Part shown: piece by piece, positions 2,560 through 31,764 of the stretch
How the letters are laid out: each line of letters starts with the position of its first letter
Position numbering within the stretch: position 1 is the stretch's first letter
Origin: Thermococcus cleftensis
GTDB lineage: Archaea; Methanobacteriota_B; Thermococci; Thermococcales; Thermococcaceae
NCBI RefSeq assembly: GCF_000265525.1
Contig: NC_018015.1
Span: forward strand, 718,322 to 782,321
DNA: 64,000 nucleotides
Direction: 5' to 3'
The notes under the pieces: generated by a model
Told to the model about the DNA's origin: nothing
What the model saw: only the letters and a program-made list of their open reading frames with translations
Database searches by the model: none
Program-made: the position numbers and the translations under genes

Positions 2560-3564
2560 ATGTTTACCTACGCCCAGGCGGGAGTTGATGACGAGAAAAC
2601 TGCGAGGGCCCTTAAAGGAATCATAGGGCTCGCAAAAGCGACCTTCGAGTTCAGGAGAGGAAAACCCGGTGAACCGGCCGAGAATCTGGGCCATTACGCA
2701 GCTTTACTTGACTTCCGTGACTTCTACCTTGCCATGACGACCGATGGAGTTGGAACCAAGGTGCTCGTTGCCGAGGCCGTTGGAAAGTTCGACACGATAG
2801 GGATAGACATGATAGCCATGAACGTGAACGACCTGCTCTGCGTTGGGGCGGAGCCGGTTGCCCTCGTCGATTACCTTGCCGTAAAGGAGCCGGACGAGAA
2901 GGTTTTTGGGGAAATAGGGAAGGGCCTCCACGAGGGGGCAAGACAGGCGGGAGTGGCGATAGTCGGCGGGGAAACGGCGGTTATGCCCGATTTGATAAAC
3001 GGCTTCGACTTGGCGGGAACCGCCATCGGCGTGGTGGATAGAGAGAAGGTCATCACGGGTGAGAAGATAAGGCCCGGCGATGCGGTTATTGGCATAGCGA
3101 GTTCGGGAATCCACTCCAACGGCCTGACCCTTGCAAGGAAGCTTCTAATCCCTAAATACGGCCTCGACTACGAGTACGAAGGCAGGAAGCTCTGGGAGTG
3201 GCTTTTGGAGCCAACGAGGATTTACGTGAAGGCGGTTCTTGAGCTGCTGGAAAGTGTCGAGGTTCACGGCCTGGCACACATAACCGGCGGCGGGCTGACC
3301 AACCTCAAGCGCCTCACGAACCACGGCTTCAGGCTGAAGATGCCACCCATTGATGGTATATTCAAGCTCGTCCACGAGAACGGCGTTCCGCTGGAGGAGA
3401 TGTTCCGCGTTTTCAACATGGGGGTCGGCTTCGTCGCGGTGGTCCCGCAGGGGGAGAAGGAGGCCGCTTTGGAAATCCTAAACAAACACTTCGAGAGCTT
3501 TGAGCTTGGAACCGTCACGGAAAGGCCAGGAATAACGATAGAGAACTACGGGGTAAGGCTTTAA
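2560..3564 (+). CDS. purM: Phosphoribosylformylglycinamidine cyclo-ligase PurM (AIR synthetase)
   Basis: PurM closes the imidazole ring to give aminoimidazole ribonucleotide using ATP. The 334-aa protein shows the PurM/SelD fold signatures: TTDGVGTK near residue 60, [19 protein letters not shown] near 80, GGETAVMPD near 138, [14 protein letters not shown] near 180, and THITGGG-like [14 protein letters not shown]. Start codons cluster at 2551 (GTG), 2554 and 2560 (ATG). I chose 2560 because GGTGATG then has normal spacing. It heads a short forward run with the small gene at 3595. Confidence 0.96.
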
Positions 3565-3594
3565 GCCCCTCTCCCAACTTTTTTCGGTGGTCCC

Positions 3595-3762
3595 ATGGAG
3601 CTAACCGTAAAGAAGAAGGCATTCCTTGAGAACCTTCCGGCTGTCGTTGAGGGGGCCGTGAAGGAATATGGGCCCCGATTGAGAAAGATTGTTATCGAAG
3701 AAGACGCGAAGGGCTGCTACACCGTCTGGATAACTCACGAGTCCGAACGGCAAGCGTTTTAA
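3595..3762 (+). CDS. Small conserved-looking protein of unknown function (55 aa)
   Basis: An ATG at 3595 follows GGTGGTCCC and opens 55 codons ending at TAA 3760-3762. The product is charged and mixed alpha/beta in look: MELTVKKKAFLENLP, then EGAVKEYGPRLRKIVIEED, then a beta-like CYTVWITHES. It begins 30 bp after purM, probably on the same transcript, and ends 22 bp before the phosphoesterase. I do not recognise the family. Good SD placement, codon use like its neighbours and a tight fit between genes support it as real. Confidence 0.65.
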   Translation: MELTVKKKAFLENLPAVVEGAVKEYGPRLRKIVIEEDAKGCYTVWITHESERQAF

Positions 3763-3784
3763 GCCCCAGCCCTTTCTAGGTACC

Positions 3785-4474
3785 ATGAGGCCGAGGCCCG
3801 TTCCTGAGAAAGCGGTCCTGCTGGGAAAAGATCTGGTAATAGCGGACCTCCACATAGGATTTGAGGAATCGATGGCCAGGGAGGGCAACTACGTCCCCAA
3901 CCTCCTCGACAGGCTTATCCAAGAGGTTCTGGCCGTTGTGAAAAAGGAAAGGCCGAAGAGGCTCATCATCGACGGCGACCTGAAGCACTCGTTCGTCCCG
4001 TTCAGGCGGGAACGGGAGGAGCTGGAGAGATTCTTCGACGCCCTTGAGGGCGAAGTCGATGAGATAATAGTGGTCAGGGGAAATCACGACCCGGGAATAC
4101 TGTGGCTGAGGGAGAGGGGAGTTGAAATCGTGGACAGGTTAGAAGTCGGAGGGTGGACCCTGGTCCATGGCCACAGGCTGGAGGAAGGAGAGAGGTTCAT
4201 AATCGGCCACGAACACCCCGCAATAAGGCTGAGGGACGAGGTGGGGGCAAGCGTGAAGGTACCGGCTTTTCTGTGGGGCGAGAGGCTTATCGTCCTGCCA
4301 GCCTTCAGTCCCTGGGCCTACGGTAACGATGTGACGAGGGAGAGAGTTTCGCCGTTCCTTCAGAAGTTCGGCACCTCAAAGTTGCGCGTGCTGGTGCCCG
4401 TCGAGGGAGAGCTCCTGGATTTTGGGGAGCTGGGAAGGCTTGCCAAAATCCTCAAGAGGCTCGGCCCAGTTTGA
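3785..4474 (+). CDS. Metallophosphoesterase, Lhr-associated (PdeM-like)
   Basis: This 229-aa calcineurin-like phosphoesterase has the binuclear-metal motifs in order: IADLHIG (D21, H23), IDGDLKHS near 63, VVRGNHDPG near 100, VHGHRLEEGE, and GHEHP near 142. It probably hydrolyses phosphodiesters. Archaeal and bacterial relatives often sit beside Lhr-type helicases, and in bacteria the partner is called PdeM; here the Lhr gene starts 47 bp downstream. A TATA-like GCGTTTTAAG lies about 25 bp before the ATG, so the transcript may be nearly leaderless. The substrate is unknown. Confidence 0.85.
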   Translation: MRPRPVPEKAVLLGKDLVIADLHIGFEESMAREGNYVPNLLDRLIQEVLAVVKKERPKRLIIDGDLKHSFVPFRREREELERFFDALEGEVDEIIVVRGNHDPGILWLRERGVEIVDRLEVGGWTLVHGHRLEEGERFIIGHEHPAIRLRDEVGASVKVPAFLWGERLIVLPAFSPWAYGNDVTRERVSPFLQKFGTSKLRVLVPVEGELLDFGELGRLAKILKRLGPV

Positions 4475-4521: not shown

Positions 4522-7125
4522 ATGATACGATGGGCCGAGAGGGAATACAGCGACGAAGAGATATTCTCGATCCTGAGCGAACCGGTTAGGGAGTGGTTTA
4601 AGCGGAAGTTCGGGACTTTTACACCGCCCCAGCGCTACGCGGTCATGGAAATTCATAAAGGTGAGAACGTTCTCATCTCCTCGCCAACGGGCTCCGGAAA
4701 AACGCTCTCCGCTTTTCTCTCGGCGATAAATGAGCTCATCCTCCTCGGCAAGGAGGGTAAGCTCGAGGACAAAATCTACGTGCTCTACGTTTCCCCTTTG
4801 AGGGCTTTGAACAACGACATAAAGCGCAACCTGGAGGGGCCTTTAGCCGAGATAAAGGAAGTGGCGAGGGAGCTCGGCTACGAAATCCCGGAGATAATGG
4901 TCGGCATAAGGACGAGCGACACTTCAAGCTACGAGAAGAGCAAGATGGTGAGGAAGCCGCCACACATACTCATAACCACTCCCGAGAGCCTTGCCATTGC
5001 TTTAAACGCCCCAAAGTTCCGCGAGAGGCTGAGAACTGTAAAGTACCTCATCATAGACGAGGTTCACGCGCTGGCTGAGAACAAGCGCGGTTCCCACCTC
5101 GCGCTCAGCGTCGAGAGGCTTCAGGAGATGGCCGAGGGGAGGTTCGTGAGGATAGGCCTGAGCGCCACCATACACCCTCTCGAGGAGGTGGCCAAGTTCG
5201 TCTTCGGCTTTGAAAACGGGAAGCCGAGGCCCGGGCTTATCGTTGATGTGAGCTTCGCCAAGCAGACGGAAATAAAAGTCGAGAGCGTTGTTGAGGATTT
5301 GATTTACACCCCCGCTGGAGCGCTGAGCGATGCCCTCTACAACAGGCTTGCCGAGCTGATAAAAGCTCATAGGACGACGTTAATTTTCACCAACACGAGG
5401 AGCGGCGCCGAGAGGGTCGCCTTCAACCTTAAAAAGCGCTTCCCGGAGTTCGAGGGCCTGATTGAAGCCCACCACTCCTCGCTGTCCAGGGAGGTTCGCC
5501 TGGACGTCGAGGAGAGGCTGAAGAGGGGCGAATTACGCTGTGTAATTAGCAGCACATCACTGGAGCTCGGCATAGACATCGGAACGATCGATCTGGTCGT
5601 CCTTATCGGTTCTCCAAAGAGCGTGAACCGTGCGTTGCAGAGAATCGGCAGGGCAGGCCACAGGCTCCACGAGGTCAGCAAGGGCGTTATTCTGGCTCTC
5701 GACAGGGACGATTTGGTCGAGGTTACGGTTTTAGCGCACAACGCGAGGAACAGACGGCTCGACCGCGTGAAAATCCCAAGGAACCCGCTCGATGTTCTCG
5801 TCCAGCACCTGCTCGGAATGGCCCTCAACAGGGTCTGGGAGGTGGAGGAGGCATACAACCTCGTGAGGCGCGCTTATCCCTTTAAAGACCTGCCCTTCGA
5901 GGACTTCATGGGCGTTTTGAGGTATCTGGCGGGGGAATACGCAGGTTTGGAGGAGAGGAAGGTCTACGCCAAGATATGGCTCGAGGACGGGCGCTTTGGA
6001 CGGCGCGGGAAGATGACGAGGACGATTTACTACATGAACGTCGGCACGATACCGGATGAGGCCAAGATCCGGGTTTACACTATGGACAAGCAGATGATCG
6101 GAACTGTGGAGGAGGAGTTTGCGGAGCGCCTAATGCCCGGCGACATCTTCGTCCTGGCCGGAAGAACATACGAGTTCGTCAAGAGCAGGGGTAACAAGAT
6201 CTACGTCATTCCCCGCGAGGGAGCGAAGCCAACTATTCCGGCCTGGTTCTCGGAGATGCTCCCTCTCAGCTTTGACCTGGCCCTCGACATTCAGAGGTTC
6301 AGGCGTGAAGTTAAGGGGCTTCTTCACCGGAGGGACGCGGTTAGGAGGCTCGTGCGGAAGTACGGGATAGACGAGAAGGCCGCGAGGGCTGTAATAGCTT
6401 ACTTCCGCGAGCAGGCGAGGTATTCGGTAGTTCCTGACGATGAAACGGTTTTGGTCGAGTTCGTTCCGGGAAAGAGGAACCGCTACTTCTTCCACACCCT
6501 CATCGGGAGGCGCGCGAACGACGCGCTGAGCAGGGCCTTCGCCTACCTCGTGAGCAAGAGAAAAAACTGCAACGTCGGGGTGGCGATAAACGACAACGGC
6601 TTCGCCCTGCTCCTCCCGCCGGAGGTAGAGCTGAGCGAGGAGGAGGTAAGGGAGCTTTTCGAGGTCGAGGACCTGAGGGAGACGCTAAAGCTGGCCCTGG
6701 ACAACACAGAGCTACTGAAGAGGCGCTTCAGGCACGTGGCCAATCGAGGATTGCTTATCCTCAGGCGCTACGTCGGGAGGAGCAAGAGGCTGGGGAGACA
6801 GCAGGTGATGGCGGTTTCCCTCCTCAAGGTCCTCAAGGAGAACCACCCCGACTTCCCGCTCCTGAAGGAGGTCTACCGCGAGATTATGGAGGACAAGATG
6901 GACGTCGAGGGCGCTGAGCAGTTCCTGGACTGGGTCAGGGAGGGCAGAATAAAGGTGGAGTTCAGGAGGCAGGACGTTCCAAGCCCCTTCGCCTTCAACC
7001 TCGAGGCTATAGGCTCGAGCGACGTTGTCCTGATGGAGGACAGGAGGGAGCTGATCAAACAGCTCCACAGAAAGATAATGGCAATGATAGGGGAAGCTCA
7101 GGAAGTTCCAGTTAAGCGCTCATAA
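4522..7125 (+). CDS. lhr: Lhr-family DEAD/DEAH-box superfamily 2 helicase
   Basis: Lhr proteins are ATP-dependent DNA/RNA helicases linked to DNA repair. The 867-aa protein has the Q-like FTPPQRYAV, Walker A SSPTGSGKT near 55, IIDEVHAL, SATI, SSTSLELGIDIG, and QRIGRAGHR of motif VI, followed by the long Lhr C-terminal core. ATG 4522 is preferred: the in-frame extension from 4471 would translate across a TATA-like AAAGTTTTTAATC. Its gene end overlaps the convergent purC by 28 bp. The neighbouring phosphoesterase suggests a two-protein nucleic-acid processing unit. Confidence 0.93.
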   Translation: MIRWAEREYSDEEIFSILSEPVREWFKRKFGTFTPPQRYAVMEIHKGENVLISSPTGSGKTLSAFLSAINELILLGKEGKLEDKIYVLYVSPLRALNNDIKRNLEGPLAEIKEVARELGYEIPEIMVGIRTSDTSSYEKSKMVRKPPHILITTPESLAIALNAPKFRERLRTVKYLIIDEVHALAENKRGSHLALSVERLQEMAEGRFVRIGLSATIHPLEEVAKFVFGFENGKPRPGLIVDVSFAKQTEIKVESVVEDLIYTPAGALSDALYNRLAELIKAHRTTLIFTNTRSGAERVAFNLKKRFPEFEGLIEAHHSSLSREVRLDVEERLKRGELRCVISSTSLELGIDIGTIDLVVLIGSPKSVNRALQRIGRAGHRLHEVSKGVILALDRDDLVEVTVLAHNARNRRLDRVKIPRNPLDVLVQHLLGMALNRVWEVEEAYNLVRRAYPFKDLPFEDFMGVLRYLAGEYAGLEERKVYAKIWLEDGRFGRRGKMTRTIYYMNVGTIPDEAKIRVYTMDKQMIGTVEEEFAERLMPGDIFVLAGRTYEFVKSRGNKIYVIPREGAKPTIPAWFSEMLPLSFDLALDIQRFRREVKGLLHRRDAVRRLVRKYGIDEKAARAVIAYFREQARYSVVPDDETVLVEFVPGKRNRYFFHTLIGRRANDALSRAFAYLVSKRKNCNVGVAINDNGFALLLPPEVELSEEEVRELFEVEDLRETLKLALDNTELLKRRFRHVANRGLLILRRYVGRSKRLGRQQVMAVSLLKVLKENHPDFPLLKEVYREIMEDKMDVEGAEQFLDWVREGRIKVEFRRQDVPSPFAFNLEAIGSSDVVLMEDRRELIKQLHRKIMAMIGEAQEVPVKRS

Positions 7126-7793
7126 AGCCTTTCATAGGCGTTTATCAGGTCGCCCCTGTCGAAGCGGAAGACGTCCTTGTCGAGGCTCTCCCTGGTTTCG
7201 GCGTCCCAGAAGCGGCAGGTGTCCGGGCTTATCTCGTCGCCGAGCACTATCTCGCCCCTCCCGTTCTTCCCGAACTCGAGCTTGAAGTCGACCAGTATGA
7301 TTCCCCGCTCGGCAAAGTACTCCCTCAGGACATCGTTAACCTTAAGGGCAATGCGCTCCATCTCCCTGATTTCCTCCTCGCTCACGCCAAGGATCTTTGC
7401 GTGGTGGTGGTTTATCATCGGGTCACCGAGGCTGTCGTCCTTGTAATAGAGCTCGACTATCGGCTCCGGCAGCTCGGTTCCTTCTTCCAGCGGAAGGCGC
7501 TTCTTCAGGCTTCCGGCGACGACGTTCCTGACGACAACTTCAAGCGGGTACATTTCAAGCCTCTCAACGATGAGCCTGTTCTCACCGGCGACGCCTATGA
7601 AGTGGGTCTTGATCCCCTTCTCCTCGAGGACCTTGAAGAGAACCGCGCTGATCTGGGCGTTGAGCCAGCCCTTCCCCTTGAACTGGGCCTTCTTCTTGCC
7701 GTCGAAGGCCGTAGCATCGTCCTTGAACTCCATTATGGCCTTTCCATCATCGAGCGGGATAATTTTTTTCGCCTTACCTTCATAGACCTCCAT
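7098..7793 (-). CDS. purC: Phosphoribosylaminoimidazole-succinocarboxamide synthase PurC (SAICAR synthetase)
   Basis: PurC joins aspartate to CAIR using ATP. The 231-aa protein begins MEVYEGKAKKI, with FKDDATAFDGKKK, then VVVRNVVAGSLKKRLPL, ELYYKDDSLGDPMIN, and VDFKLEFG followed by LGDEISPDTCRFWD, all standard PurC blocks. ATG 7793 is chosen because GGTGAAG precedes it; the longer frame would run through the divergent promoter. Its 3' end overlaps lhr. It is divergent from purF, with the ATGGCAAA motif between them. Confidence 0.96.
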   Translation of the reverse strand: MEVYEGKAKKIIPLDDGKAIMEFKDDATAFDGKKKAQFKGKGWLNAQISAVLFKVLEEKGIKTHFIGVAGENRLIVERLEMYPLEVVVRNVVAGSLKKRLPLEEGTELPEPIVELYYKDDSLGDPMINHHHAKILGVSEEEIREMERIALKVNDVLREYFAERGIILVDFKLEFGKNGRGEIVLGDEISPDTCRFWDAETRESLDKDVFRFDRGDLINAYERLYERLTGTS

Positions 7794-7851
7794 GGACTTC
7801 ACCATATTTGTGTAAAATTTTAGGCTATTTAAGGGTTGTTTTATCATAAAA

Positions 7852-7879
7852 ATGGCAAACAATGGGCAAAGCTTTTAAA
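7852..7879 (+). promoter_or_regulatory. purF promoter with ATGGCAAA and a degenerate copy
   Basis: ATGGCAAA (7852-7859) is followed by a near copy ATGGGCAAA (7862-7870), one base, and then TATA-like CTTTTAAA (7872-7879), about 77 bp before purF. The region is shared with divergent purC. The double copy supports a bound regulator over a simple BRE. Confidence 0.5.
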
Positions 7880-26068: not shown

Positions 26069-26862
26069 CTAATGAGAATGAACCCATATGAGCGTCTTCA
26101 GCAGAGTGTAGGCGATGAGCAGGACAATGGGCGGTAGGAGTAAAAGGTCGAGCCTTCTCCTCCGGGGATAAACCAGCATTCCAAAGAGAGCATATAGAAC
26201 GTTCAAACCAGAGAGCAACAGGACGTACCGATACCCCCTCGGGTCTTCGCTGTAGAAATGCAGAATAGGGCGTATCGCCTCAACGCGAACATCAGAATAA
26301 TTTGCAACCAAACCCACCGCAACCAAGGAAATGAGTGCGACGAGAGAACCAAGGAGAATCTCCCTGGAACCCGGAGAGGAGTCCTTTCCAACGAAACGCG
26401 CGTAGAGAAAGACGGGGAAGTCTATAAACAGCACCGCTATTGCCAGAAACACAGGAACACAAATCATCACACATCACAACAAAGTTGATAACGTAAATAA
26501 CGCCCCTCTCAAATCCCATATCCACAAGGGCCGTGCTGAGGGAACCCCACATCAGGATTACGAAAGCGATATCCTTTGCTGAATCTTGTATAACCCCCAA
26601 TGTCCGTCTCATCAATAACCCGAAGAAGCTCCCTAAATCCAAACTTTGAATTACGCTCCCTCTCAAGACGCCTTTTGAATATGAAAAAGGCTATAGCAAG
26701 CGCGATGAAGAAGGAAACGACCGCCGTTATCAGTCCGGAGAGTGTAATAGTCATCTTCTGTGATGGAACACGCGGACGAAAATAGAACAGCCCCCACAGA
26801 GCCATCCAAATCACCAACGGAACCAGTATAGCTTCCAGCATCAACTTTCGCCCAGGCTTCAT
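26069..26862 (-). pseudogene. Frameshifted polytopic membrane protein (paralogue of 27630-28424)
   Basis: Three reading-frame pieces together match the intact 264-aa paralogue end to end. The first runs from ATG 26862 (GGGGGTGTTTAAG SD) to FRELLRVIDETDI. The second reads GVIQDSAKDIAFVILMWGS to INFVVMC. The third reads MMICVPVFLAIAVLFIDF to the end and has the shared PRRRR motif. The shifts are a G5 run (plus-strand C5 at 26594-26598) and a point near 26468-26478; each needs removal of one base. About eight membrane spans are expected if restored. Function is unknown, and the gene is last in the cluster headed by the Cys-rich precursor at 28482-29542. Confidence 0.75.
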
Positions 26863-26880
26863 CTTAAACACCCCCAACGT

Positions 26881-27596
26881 TCAACGTTTCAACAATGCCC
26901 AGACGACGAAGAGCATGGCCACTGCAAGTGAAAGCAGAACAATCGCAAGAATCCTCCTTCCAACTCTGCGCGAGAGATAAACCCCCAAAAGCCAAACAGG
27001 GTGTTTAGGATTGAGAGAATCAGGAACTTTTCGGCGTTCACAACCACGGCGGTGAATACTTCCAGAATTTCCTTCGGGTAGTTCTGGGTTGCAAAATAAC
27101 GGGAGACGACCCATATTGGAGGAATTGCGAGAGCTGAGGCAAGGGACGTTTTACCAATGCCCTCAAAGACGTACTCTGCTCTTTTACTCTTGAGAAAGTA
27201 CAACGGGAGAGCTACAATCCACACCACCATCGTGGCGAAGACCGGATACATCACTACCATAAGAAAAGCCAGGCCAACGAACGCCATTATGGCAAGGAAA
27301 ACATCGTGAAACCCCAGGAGAAACGTGCTGAAAATTCCCCAGAGAATGAGGTGATGGGCTATGCATTCCTGTACATCGTGCTTTAGGTACCCGATGTCAC
27401 TTTTCCCGTATCCATGCTTCTCTAGAATGCGGGCTAGGAAGAAGACCATTGAAGCTACCATGAGGACAAAAAGAAGGATCGTACTAAGAACCCATTCACG
27501 GGTTATGAGGCCGAGTTTCACCCAGGCGAAGCCAAACAGCACCGCGGAGAGCACCACAGGAAAAATGAAGATCTTAAAAATAATTTTTCTCCCCAT
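26881..27596 (-). pseudogene. Frameshifted polytopic membrane protein, second paralogue
   Basis: From ATG 27596 (GGTGGTCTCA SD) the frame encodes about eight membrane spans with LILWGIFSTFLL, comparable to LIWGAFSSGVL in the intact paralogue. After FLILSILNTLFGFWG the frame fails at a G5 run (plus-strand C5, 26982-26986). One extra G gives VYLSRRVGRRILAI and a normal end at 26881, matching the paralogue's ILPRRRRAGLL. It starts 33 bp after the intact paralogue and ends 18 bp before the third copy. It may be decayed, phase-variable or a sequencing error. Confidence 0.7.
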
Positions 27597-27629
27597 TGAG
27601 ACCACCGGGGCTTTTTTGATAAATCCGAA

Positions 27630-28424
27630 CTACAATGAGTGCAGTTGGATAAAAACCTTTATCAGTATGGGGACGAGGGCGAGGGCAATCAGCAGGAGCA
27701 TTAAAAGGCCAGCCCTTCTCCTTCTAGGCAGGATTAGAATTCCGACAAGGCCGTACAGGATATTCAAGGCTGACAGCAACTGGAGGTTTGCATATAAGTC
27801 CCTGTTTACGTAGAATTTTAAGAGAGAGCGGAATAGCCCAATTTCCGAGGCCCCAAGATGTGAGGCCATACAACTCAGGAGAACCAGAGAACCCCCAGAA
27901 ACCAGCGAAATCAGCAGGATTTCCTTGAAGATGGGCGAGAGCCGTTTTCCAGTTAAACTTTCATAGAGCATCAAAGGCACGTCCATGAGCAATACCACCA
28001 TAGAGATGATTAACAAGAGCCCGACAGTTATAAAAACCAGTGCAAAGTCAATAGCGAGTATTATCCCTTTCTTAGGACCATTAATCAGAACCCCTGAACT
28101 AAAAGCACCCCATATTAAAATAGCACGAAAAATTCCTGACGTCAAATCATTGATAATCTCCGGGTCAGCCTTCTCAAGAACTTGGGGGAGCTCTTTAAAT
28201 TTGAGGTCGGTATAACCCACTTTTCTCAGGCGCTTTTTGAGCACAAGGGCAATAAAAGCCAGCACAAGTAATAGGGAAACCACCGTTGTAATCAGCCAGG
28301 AAACGTTGAAATTCTCACGCTGAATACCAGATGTTGGGCGAATATAGAGAAACAACCATATAACTACCCACGCCACCAGTGGAACTATTACAGCCTCCAT
28401 TACCGACCTTTTTCCGAATTTCAT
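27630..28424 (-). CDS. Polytopic membrane protein, intact member of a three-gene paralogous set
   Basis: A 264-aa protein with about eight predicted membrane helices, a cytoplasmic basic loop (VLKKRLRKVGYTDLKFKEL) and a conserved LYGLVGILILPRRRRAG near the C-terminus. ATG 28424 follows GGGGGATTCAAAA. The two genes after it are frameshifted paralogues, and the gene before it is a Cys-rich secreted precursor 57 bp upstream. I do not recognise a Pfam family. Its place suggests an export or self-protection role for the Cys-rich product, which is inference only. Confidence 0.7.
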   Translation of the reverse strand: MKFGKRSVMEAVIVPLVAWVVIWLFLYIRPTSGIQRENFNVSWLITTVVSLLLVLAFIALVLKKRLRKVGYTDLKFKELPQVLEKADPEIINDLTSGIFRAILIWGAFSSGVLINGPKKGIILAIDFALVFITVGLLLIISMVVLLMDVPLMLYESLTGKRLSPIFKEILLISLVSGGSLVLLSCMASHLGASEIGLFRSLLKFYVNRDLYANLQLLSALNILYGLVGILILPRRRRAGLLMLLLIALALVPILIKVFIQLHSL

Positions 28425-28481
28425 TTTTGAATCCCCCACAATGCTCTGATTCTGGAGAATTAAAAAATGAGGGGCTCAAGA

Positions 28482-29542
28482 CTATGAGAATATAGTATCA
28501 CAAATCTGGGGACAAATCATTGGAGCAAAAACTGCTGCACAGGCATCCGCGCAAACGCTTCCCAATATTCCACATCTACTTGCACAAATTCTCTTTAGTA
28601 TCTCTGAACATCCAGCAGAGCAACTTCCTCCTTTTACAATGCTAGACCAGAAGTCCTCACCACACGTAGAGGCACAAAGACCCGAGCATATAAACCCCCC
28701 TGCAAAGCATATAATCGAGAGTACTCCTCCACTACTGCCTGCTGCAGCTATACAGACAAGGTAAAAAGTCCAGTGCATGACAAGTCGCAGAGATGAACGC
28801 ACGCTGAGTAGTCATCGATGACTATAGCATACCCTAAGTTTGCTTTTCCATTGTACTCAGGAAGCTTAAGCCTCACTAGGTGCGAAAGGTGCCTTAACTC
28901 GTAAGCACTCCTGCCCCAAATCCAGTTCGTCTCATCACCCCTGGGGAGCTTCATGAGAACCTTGTTCAGAGTCCAGTAGTAATCTGAAAGCGTGAGATTA
29001 CCAATTACCAGTACAGTATCCCCAACAGGAACTGCCCTGCTCTCATCATCAGGAGCGATGTTCATTCCAGTAACAAAAGCCCTGTACTCTCCAGTTTTAG
29101 GGTCAGTTAGGATTTCAGTGATTAGCGTAAAATTATACTGACTCCTCTCGGCTCTATAAACAAGGTTGTATATGGTGTAGTTAAAGGTGGCATTGTAAGC
29201 AGTAACCTTGATGAACAACAACTGTTCATGATTCCTTGTCATGTTGTACAGAGTGGTTATCGAAACATTAACGTGATCGCTCGTATTAAAAGCACCACAA
29301 GAACTGGCGTTCTGGCAAGCGCAGGGAGAATGCGTCAAATTAGTGAAGTTTAATGTTGCATTCACCCACGTGACGTTCATCTGAAGCTTACCATTCTCAT
29401 CGTACCAAGCAACCACCGCCCTCCTAAAGGTTATGCTGGCGTTGTTAGTGCTCATTGCCATGGCCTGTGGAGCGGCAATCAACTGCAGGCTCAGCACCAT
29501 AAAGACCAGAAACACGCCGAACGTCGCCTTTCTCCAGTTCAT
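28482..29542 (-). pseudogene. Frameshifted secreted precursor with C-terminal CX3C cysteine array
   Basis: From ATG 29542 (GGTGGTGGCC SD) the frame encodes a signal peptide (about 1-30) and a sequon-rich domain with FRRAVVAWYDENGKLQ, shared with the gene at 30669-31697. It then enters a Cys-rich tail and stops at 28748. Inserting one T in the T5 run (plus-strand A5, 28764-28768) joins it to the second frame, ending at 28482. The restored tail has 16 Cys with eight CX3C units (CVHLC, CDLSC, CSGLC, CASTC, CSAGC, CASRC, CADAC, CPQIC). Without the shift the tail keeps only three Cys. Confidence 0.75.
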
Positions 29543-29590
29543 GGCCACCACCTGGCCAGTTGATTCTAATTTTTACTAGTTGGATTAGTT

Positions 29591-29684
29591 AACGTTTTTT
29601 CGTGGGATTTTCAATTTCTAACCGTATCAAAACGACGAGAACAAATCAAAAAGAGTATGAGTAAGGGAACGGACAAAAGAACAC
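29591..29684. repeat. Duplicated upstream element, copy 1
   Basis: About 95 bp here align at roughly 75% with 31765-31860. The shared core on the plus strand is GGATTTTCAATTT, and ACAAAAGAACAC lies at the far end. It lies upstream of the precursor gene at 29542, just as copy 2 lies upstream of the precursor at 31697, so the genes were duplicated with their control region. Confidence 0.7.
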
Positions 29685-29703
29685 AAATGTCTATGTTTTT
29701 AGG

Positions 29704-30672
29704 TCATCCATTATGAACCTTCAGCCTCAACCACCCAAGAAACGTCCCGAAGGGAAGGAAAATCGTCGTAAATATGTACAGGAGCCTGAACACCGTTAAC
29801 AAAGATTCCCTGATAAACGAGGCACTGTAATCCCCAGTGACTATCATCAAAGCTACCATCGCCCCAAATCCATAAAAGATGCCGTAAAACAGGCGCCAGG
29901 CTCCGCTTTCGGCGTATTTCTTCCCCAGCAACCCTTCTGCCACAAGTTTCCTGGTTATCTTGTAGTCTTTTTCAGACACAACCGCGAAAAGTGCCCCAAT
30001 CAGGCCACTTAGGACTATGTTGTCAATTACGAACAGGTACAGCCCGGAAGTGACGGCCACAAAATTTACAACGATCCTGATTTTAAATATCCGCTCGGAT
30101 ATCACATACTTGTGAGCCATTATGGAATAGTACCAGCTGGCCAAAACAAAAACGTAAAGCGCCATCGAGAGGCTCTTTTCCAGACTCACCCCTGAGGAGT
30201 ATGCGATTGCAAACACTAAGAAGGACGTTGAAAGTTCCTTGAGGAAGTTTCGCCAAGAATAGACGACTTTTTCGGGTGTTTTCTTATCCCTCTCGTGTAT
30301 CATTGCCACGAGAAACAGCACAGACGTGCCGATTATGAACAAAACGCCGAGCACTTTGGCGAGAGGGATGAAAGAGGTGCCCGGTTTTGCAAACGCCGCG
30401 TGGATAAGCTCAAATAAAAGCACTCCAAACCCAAACGAAATCAGAAAAAAGAGTATAAGCCCAATACTTGGAGATTTTAAAAATTGAGACTCTCTCTGCT
30501 GTTTATCCTGTCTTTTCCAGAAAATATGCGCAGAGGTGTAGAGAAGTGACAAGATGACTGCAAATAAGAAGCTTTCCCCCAATGAAAGCGAAAGGGCGTA
30601 GTGGAACAGGATTGCCAGAAAAACTGCCCCGATAAAAAAGTTTAGAAGGAGAAAATGTTTCTTCCCGCTCAT
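29704..30672 (-). CDS. Polytopic membrane protein coupled to the Cys-rich precursor
   Basis: A 322-aa protein with about nine or ten predicted membrane spans and charged loops (KRQDKQQRESQ, HERDKKTPEK). ATG 30672 overlaps the TGA of the Cys-rich precursor (ATGA), with GAGGTGG upstream inside that gene, so translation is coupled. I do not recognise a family, and it is not clearly related to the three paralogues at 26-28.4 kb. Tight coupling to a secreted cysteine-rich product suggests transport, processing or immunity. Confidence 0.72.
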   Translation of the reverse strand: MSGKKHFLLLNFFIGAVFLAILFHYALSLSLGESFLFAVILSLLYTSAHIFWKRQDKQQRESQFLKSPSIGLILFFLISFGFGVLLFELIHAAFAKPGTSFIPLAKVLGVLFIIGTSVLFLVAMIHERDKKTPEKVVYSWRNFLKELSTSFLVFAIAYSSGVSLEKSLSMALYVFVLASWYYSIMAHKYVISERIFKIRIVVNFVAVTSGLYLFVIDNIVLSGLIGALFAVVSEKDYKITRKLVAEGLLGKKYAESGAWRLFYGIFYGFGAMVALMIVTGDYSASFIRESLLTVFRLLYIFTTIFLPFGTFLGWLRLKVHNG

Positions 30673-31697
30673 CCACATACCACCTCACAAGCTCCGGTAC
30701 AAGCTGGAGCGCACGCATATTCTTCACAGAAAAATGAAAATGGCCCCAGTTTTGTACATGCAGCTGAGCAAAGTCCTGCACAGAATCCACCACACCCTAC
30801 CGAACAGAGATCGGTAGTTCCTGTACAAGCAACACTACAGCCAAAACCACAGGCACCTCCCCACAAGATTGAGCAGGTTATGCCACACAGCGGATTTTCT
30901 GCAACGATTCCGCATAGTAGGAAACAGAAAGGGGTTGTAGACAATGAACATATGAGCCCACAACTTGATGTACATGTATCATCCATTATTATGACAGTGC
31001 CGTGTCCTACTATATTATAGTCTCCTAAACCCCTCTCAGTTTTCTTAGCTAGATCGTTAAGCTCAATCCTGACTTTATTCCAGATCCAGCTTGTGGTATC
31101 GTTCTTCCTGATTTCATTCAGCACTTTGCCAACAAATCTATAGTGGTCAGCAAGAGGGGTTTTGTTCGCGAAGAACACTATATCCGCTACAGGTTGGGCC
31201 TTACTATCCCTCGGTTCGATATTCACCATTGTTGTGAACAAGTTAGTGCCGTTTATGGGTATTATTCTTGTAATAACACTTAGATTATACTGACTCCTCT
31301 CAGCCTTGTAAACGAGGGCATATATGGTGTAGTTGAAAGTCTCGTTGTAAAGGGTTATCCCAAAGAACAACAACTGCTCGTGCTTCCTCGTCATGTTGTA
31401 AAGCGTAACCACTGAAACATTAAAGTTTGCAGTCAAGTTTGAGGCACTACAGAAGCTTGAGTTGTGGCATGCACAGGAGGCATTAGTCAAGTTCGCGAAG
31501 TCAATGGTCTTATTCACCCACGTGACGTTGAGCTGGAGCTTACCATTCTCATCGTACCAGGCAACTACAGTCCTCCGGAATGTTACGCTGGAATTGCTGG
31601 CAGTTAAAGCCTTGGTCTCCTGGACAGTCCCCAACTGGAGACTCAACAGCATAGCAAGCAAAAGCAGAGCACCAACCTTCCGGACCCAACCATCCAT
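30669..31697 (-). CDS. Secreted precursor with 20-Cys CX3C array (archaeocin-like candidate)
   Basis: A 342-aa protein with a signal peptide (about 1-30). An extracellular domain follows at about 35-240, with about 15 NxS/T sequons and FRRTVVAWYDENGKLQ. The final 101 residues carry 20 Cys, 13 of the intervals being exactly CX3C (for example CGFGC, CSVAC, CSVGC, CGGFC, CAGLC, CSAAC), rich in Gly and Ala. CX3C spacing puts cysteines on one helix face. The layout of a signal, an N-domain and a C-terminal Cys-rich peptide resembles the halocin C8 precursor, but I cannot show homology. ATG 31697 follows GGGGTG; a TATA-like AAATTTTAAGG lies upstream. Confidence 0.75.
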   Translation of the reverse strand: MDGWVRKVGALLLLAMLLSLQLGTVQETKALTASNSSVTFRRTVVAWYDENGKLQLNVTWVNKTIDFANLTNASCACHNSSFCSASNLTANFNVSVVTLYNMTRKHEQLLFFGITLYNETFNYTIYALVYKAERSQYNLSVITRIIPINGTNLFTTMVNIEPRDSKAQPVADIVFFANKTPLADHYRFVGKVLNEIRKNDTTSWIWNKVRIELNDLAKKTERGLGDYNIVGHGTVIIMDDTCTSSCGLICSLSTTPFCFLLCGIVAENPLCGITCSILWGGACGFGCSVACTGTTDLCSVGCGGFCAGLCSAACTKLGPFSFFCEEYACAPACTGACEVVCG

Positions 31698-31764
31698 AGA
31701 CACACCCCTATGTGTATGTTACATTAAAATCCTTAAAATTTTTCCAATTACAAGTTTGAATCAG

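Follow-up and report, generated by a model that had tools for sequence, protein, structure and literature searches.

A predicted modular archaeocin system of the Thermococcales with exchangeable cysteine-rich tails on a common leader

The archaeocins named in a 2023 paper are only the sulfolobicins and the halocins (PMC10105419). In haloarchaea, the active C-terminal fragments of halocins H4 and C8 are released by cleavage; the protease is the extracellular serine protease HlyR4 in the case of H4 and is unidentified in the case of C8 (PMC12893001). No antimicrobial peptide system of the Thermococcales was found in the open-access literature searched; partial anticipation is possible.

Two putative secreted precursors are encoded at positions 28482-31697 of the window (the whole stretch of 64,000 nucleotides of Thermococcus cleftensis that was analysed), both where the initial annotation had placed them. 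That annotation suggested an archaeocin-like system, and the comparison with related genomes supports it. We think it likely that this is a polymorphic, that is, modular archaeocin system of swapped disulfide-rich effectors with cognate membrane immunity. With less assurance, we lean towards a broader description: recombination-driven archaeocins of hyperthermophiles, in which one folded carrier bears at least nine unrelated disulfide-rich effector families (two of them in the window) that public profile libraries mostly lack, every family is paired with a membrane immunity protein of its own, and the population holds a stock of orphan immunity genes.

Among the closest described systems is halocin C8, represented by the curated model TIGR04449. 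As in halocin C8, a Cys-rich hydrophobic C-terminal part, the predicted effector, is attached to a larger secreted precursor, and some tails found on this leader match the model; unlike halocin C8, the tails of the window do not, and the Thermococcales leader serves many tail families. Halocin C8 immunity comes from the precursor N-terminus (2005 work cited in PMC12893001). That one Thermococcales leader serves nine or more unrelated tail families, which have tail-specific downstream genes, argues against the leader as the specific immunity factor.

The layout is also that of polymorphic toxin systems (Zhang et al. 2012, PMC3482391), with a conserved N-terminal trafficking part, exchangeable unrelated C-terminal effectors, an effector-specific gene directly downstream (whose protective role is here a prediction), leftover cassettes and orphan immunity genes. 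The differences are that the putative effectors, about 59-130 residues long, are Cys-rich peptides and no recognisable enzymes, that the immunity proteins are predicted membrane proteins, and that the precursors have only about 300-380 aa. Another hypervariable recombining locus of the Thermococcales, VARTIG, similarly has a variable C-terminus in a secreted protein and variable membrane genes downstream, but is centred on large immunoglobulin-domain proteins, and the text of the paper describing it has no mention of halocin (PMC8416519). In the proteins scanned here, no Ig-domain match exceeds the curated cut-off (Big_4 has 11.3 bits vs 22.1). Class II bacteriocins combine a small secreted peptide with a small cognate membrane protein. 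Where these have a short double-glycine leader, the Thermococcales precursors have a signal peptide and a long, presumably folded leader; Pfam and NCBIfam showed no sequence relation to class II bacteriocins.

The two precursors of the window

The gene of precursor A (30669..31697, minus strand) is intact and encodes a signal peptide, the leader domain, a G-x5-D junction and a Cys-rich tail. The open frame has 344 codons (30669-31703, minus strand), as a GTG lies 6 bases upstream of the ATG at 31697. In the numbering from the GTG at 31703, the leader ends at about residue 229; the match of precursor A to the leader profile has the E-value 4.3e-109. The type-A tail, a candidate effector (30672..30983, minus strand), has about 104 residues. 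Recounting confirms the numbers of the initial annotation, 20 Cys with 13 exact CX3C steps; when the same letters were shuffled 20,000 times, the mean was 2.0 steps and the highest count was 9. The protein sequence of tail A is 99% identical to that of L035, with dN/dS = 0.016 over 103 codons, whereas the leaders of the same pair are only 54% identical. This one pair indicates strong purifying selection on tail A, and suggests that the tail is a selected, functional unit.

The next gene, immA (29704..30678, minus strand), encodes a 324-aa polytopic membrane protein, the predicted cognate immunity protein, and overlaps the end of precursor A. The ATGA coupling noted in the initial annotation exists for the second Met of ImmA; the first in-frame ATG, however, is situated 6 bases upstream, within the tail codons, and this 6-base offset recurs in L035, L036 and L119. 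In L036 (G025), about 60 residues are missing from within the Cys tail of the type-A precursor (7020-7866, plus strand), and ImmA is intact. The fold search with precursor A yielded no match; with just two to three sequences per alignment, confidence was low (mean pLDDT 44-46) in the structures predicted for precursor A and ImmA.

Precursor B is broken. Its 5' part (28748..29551, minus strand) encodes the signal peptide, the leader and the start of the type-B tail, within which the frame is lost. The remainder of the tail is found in another, overlapping frame (28482..28802, minus strand) and matches intact tails, e.g. those of L039 and L101. The latter have 16 Cys with eight CX3C steps, exactly as initially counted in the restored tail. 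The leader domains, for which the initial annotation considered glycosylation, are sequon-rich, as annotated, with 15 sequons in precursor A and 13 in the open part of precursor B.

The three paralogous membrane genes annotated after precursor B are indeed present, although not all in good order. ImmB1 (27630..28439, minus strand; 269 aa), the predicted cognate immunity protein for type-B tails, is 78-81% identical to its counterpart behind intact type-B precursors. ImmB2 (26889..27605, minus strand; 238 aa), a paralogue of ImmB1 with 23% identity, aligns with intact relatives over its first 208-212 residues only. The third paralogue, ImmB3 (26069..26877, minus strand), is broken up over two frames, 26509-26877 and 26069-26470; in L039 and in L042, a single gene of 267 aa is matched by the two in succession. 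With ImmB3 split and ImmB2 matched in part, the B cassette, as read in the assembled sequence, looks as if it is decaying, and precursor A with its partner looks intact.

The leader and its tail families

The leader profile was built from 18 relatives. Their alignment has 62 invariant columns, and the FRR(A/T)VVAWYDENGKLQ block, noted earlier as common to the N-terminal domains of both precursors, is real. The profile search identified the leader in 29 of 94 Thermococcaceae genomes, which belong to three of the six genera; the 21 genomes from elsewhere in the phylum have none. A third leader copy is situated in the same genome, about 87 kb from the window. Profile scans assigned no Pfam, NCBIfam or PHROGs family to the leader or to the other window proteins, and no relative of the leader profile was found among PDB sequences. 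The plasmid, phage and viral-contig collections contain no relative of the family either, so carriage by mobile elements is not supported by these collections.

Every readable member has a Cys-rich tail (6-20 Cys), and no intact leader lacking such a tail, which the initial annotation had named as evidence against its reading, was found. The tails behind the same leader have 20, 16, 12, 10, 8 or 6 Cys (one has 7), with quite different spacings. Of 44 tails, 43 have an even number of Cys, as expected for disulfides, in a count that takes related loci as independent. By profile-profile comparison, at least nine unrelated tail families, A, B, C8, D, E, F, G, H and I, occur on one leader. In the control with column-shuffled profiles the best probability was 49, and two joins, D-D2 (about 60) and G-H (51), are barely above it. 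An early BLAST clustering placed tails A and B in one family; this was rejected, as the A-B2 profile probability is 33 vs the control maximum of 49.

The C8 tails match TIGR04449, the NCBI halocin C8 domain, with up to 44-48 bits vs the cut-off of 24. Among them is the tail of the third copy in the T. cleftensis genome (C1:836174-836395, E 2.8e-11). The control genome matched by TIGR04449 is that of Haloferax volcanii. Tails A and B have no TIGR04449 match at the 24-bit cut-off and no match in Pfam, NCBIfam or PHROGs. By the curated model, then, type-A and type-B tails are not members of the halocin C8 family, and the link to halocin C8 drawn in the initial annotation holds via the other tails on the same leader and not for the two tails that it described.

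A second, unrelated secreted leader family (L142-L153) is present in 12 Thermococcaceae genomes. It carries four further TIGR04449-like tails, two of them above the cut-off, one narrowly, as well as other Cys-rich tails, and usually has a small, mostly membrane-type ORF downstream. The same layout on a different leader suggests that the modular design is not confined to one carrier.

The tails might be surface proteins having no role in antagonism, for instance metal-binding or envelope-stabilising Cys-rich domains, and their high Cys content could indeed bind metal. However, the Cys spacing is wholly different between tail types while the Cys number is even, the tails are swapped along with specific downstream genes, the distribution is patchy (29 of 94 genomes), and there is the halocin C8 match. 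Hence we consider surface proteins of this kind highly improbable.

Downstream membrane genes

A membrane ORF, as defined by hydropathy, is directly downstream of 44 of 45 precursors, at a spacing of -37 to +86 nt; the distance from the broken B frame to the next membrane ORF is 311 nt. The downstream partners form 15 families, split by tail type. Outside types A and B they are mostly 62-170 aa long, with one to five predicted membrane spans. Two loci that have a partner family in common also agree in tail type in all 100 such pairs, compared with the mean of 17 and the maximum of 45 in 5000 permutations; as the loci are related and were counted as independent, this result is not to be read as a probability. 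Together with the leader tree (see below), the association indicates that the tail and its partner travel as a unit. The initial annotation proposed surveying the Thermococcales for the CX3C tail adjacent to such membrane genes, and the ImmA family is indeed found behind the other three type-A tails too.

The immunity-family genes are often present on their own. On 51 loci we identified 127 such genes, of which 64 have no cognate precursor on the locus, and eight loci have immunity-family genes and no precursor; most of the precursor-free loci were picked by the ImmA search, and thus the orphan proportion is not an unbiased estimate. The ImmA family itself occurs in 25 of 94 genomes, mostly as an orphan. 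The locus of G080 (L135, 7966-10165, plus strand) has no precursor of this family but a run of immunity-type genes with three or more specificities, with an ImmA 92% identical to that of the window next to the others. A weak match of ImmA to a holin (E 0.003 over 37 residues) was disregarded.

The initial annotation considered the membrane proteins as either exporters or immunity factors. They could serve specifically to export or process the tails, given the tight coupling, with the type-A gene even overlapping its precursor, and the large polytopic ImmA. Yet one shared leader should use a shared exporter, and the 15 families are split by tail type; moreover, a signal peptide is already present in the precursors, half of the membrane genes lack a cognate cargo, and no transporter family scores above the cut-off. 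Lone membrane genes are the pattern expected of immunity and not of exporters or processing enzymes. Dedicated export or processing is thus very unlikely, and immunity is the function favoured by the gene comparison, since the partners are tail-specific, mostly small and often without a cognate precursor.

It is also conceivable that the tails are ligands in signalling or kin recognition and the downstream membrane proteins their receptors, so that the variability would mark self vs non-self and not serve killing. One-to-one pairing of peptides and membrane proteins, as well as lone membrane genes, would look the same in this case, and VARTIG provides an example of a hypervariable Thermococcales module of uncertain function, possibly in self/non-self recognition (PMC8416519). 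On the other hand, halocin C8 domains, named for an antimicrobial archaeocin, are present on the same leader, the partners are mostly small apart from those of types A and B, and none of three partner proteins scanned matched a signalling domain. The broken precursor with retained membrane genes (B in the window) and the membrane-only loci such as G080 fit immunity better. We therefore regard ligand-receptor recognition as unlikely, and describe the partners below as predicted immunity proteins.

Tail exchange and the predicted processing site

The distribution of tail families on the leader tree requires at least 19 switches, the minimum possible number being 8. Precursor A is itself a mosaic: its first 120 or so residues show 86-100% DNA identity, with most blocks at 90% or higher, to L037 (G013), which has an unrelated tail, while L036 (G025) is the close match, mostly at 93-100% DNA identity, for the later part of the leader, the remaining tail and ImmA.

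With the pattern applied, 45 of 46 members have G-x(4-6)-D ahead of the tail; in the exception, L036, the G is slightly earlier. In the full-length alignment of 18 rows, no columns past the leader are invariant except G232 and D238. Asp is the first residue of mature halocin C8. The mature peptide of precursor A is predicted to start at, or next to, D241/D242.

For the Thermococcales precursors we infer the following route of secretion, cleavage, disulfide formation, killing and immunity. The conserved leader would carry the precursor to the exterior and probably holds the effector in a folded, inactive state. Cleavage at the conserved G-x(4-6)-D junction, probably by a protease that is extracellular or located at the surface, would release a compact, hydrophobic, disulfide-stabilised peptide, which for precursor A would be about 10 kDa with up to ten disulfides. 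With a cut at D241 or D242, the calculated mass of the fully oxidised type-A peptide is about 10.15-10.26 kDa, and reduction would shift it by about 20 Da. The peptide would inhibit related archaea, most likely at the membrane; it is from the halocin C8 match in some of the tails that we infer toxicity. The membrane protein encoded by the next gene downstream would guard the producer against that peptide type only. The leaders seem to recombine with new tail-plus-immunity cassettes, and the immunity genes may be kept after loss of the effector.

A system of this kind would tie halocin C8 to several unrelated peptide families by a common carrier, and its disulfide-rich peptides would need to function at high temperature. 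The matched peptide-immunity pairs can be tested in genetically tractable Thermococcus, and the arrays of orphan immunity genes predict which strains resist which peptide.

Some loci have further features. L050, L102 and L113 contain cassettes of a 5'-truncated leader and a tail. The precursors of L040, L045, L047, L097, L099, L102, L110, L111 and L113 are just upstream of apparent ribosomal protein genes (MTDNFRHIVRVAG, MGDPKRQRKKYE); that many precursor loci adjoin ribosomal-like genes suggests a preferred insertion site. Finally, in L004 a secreted serpin-like protein, apparently broken (3191-4446, minus strand), is encoded close to a type-A locus.
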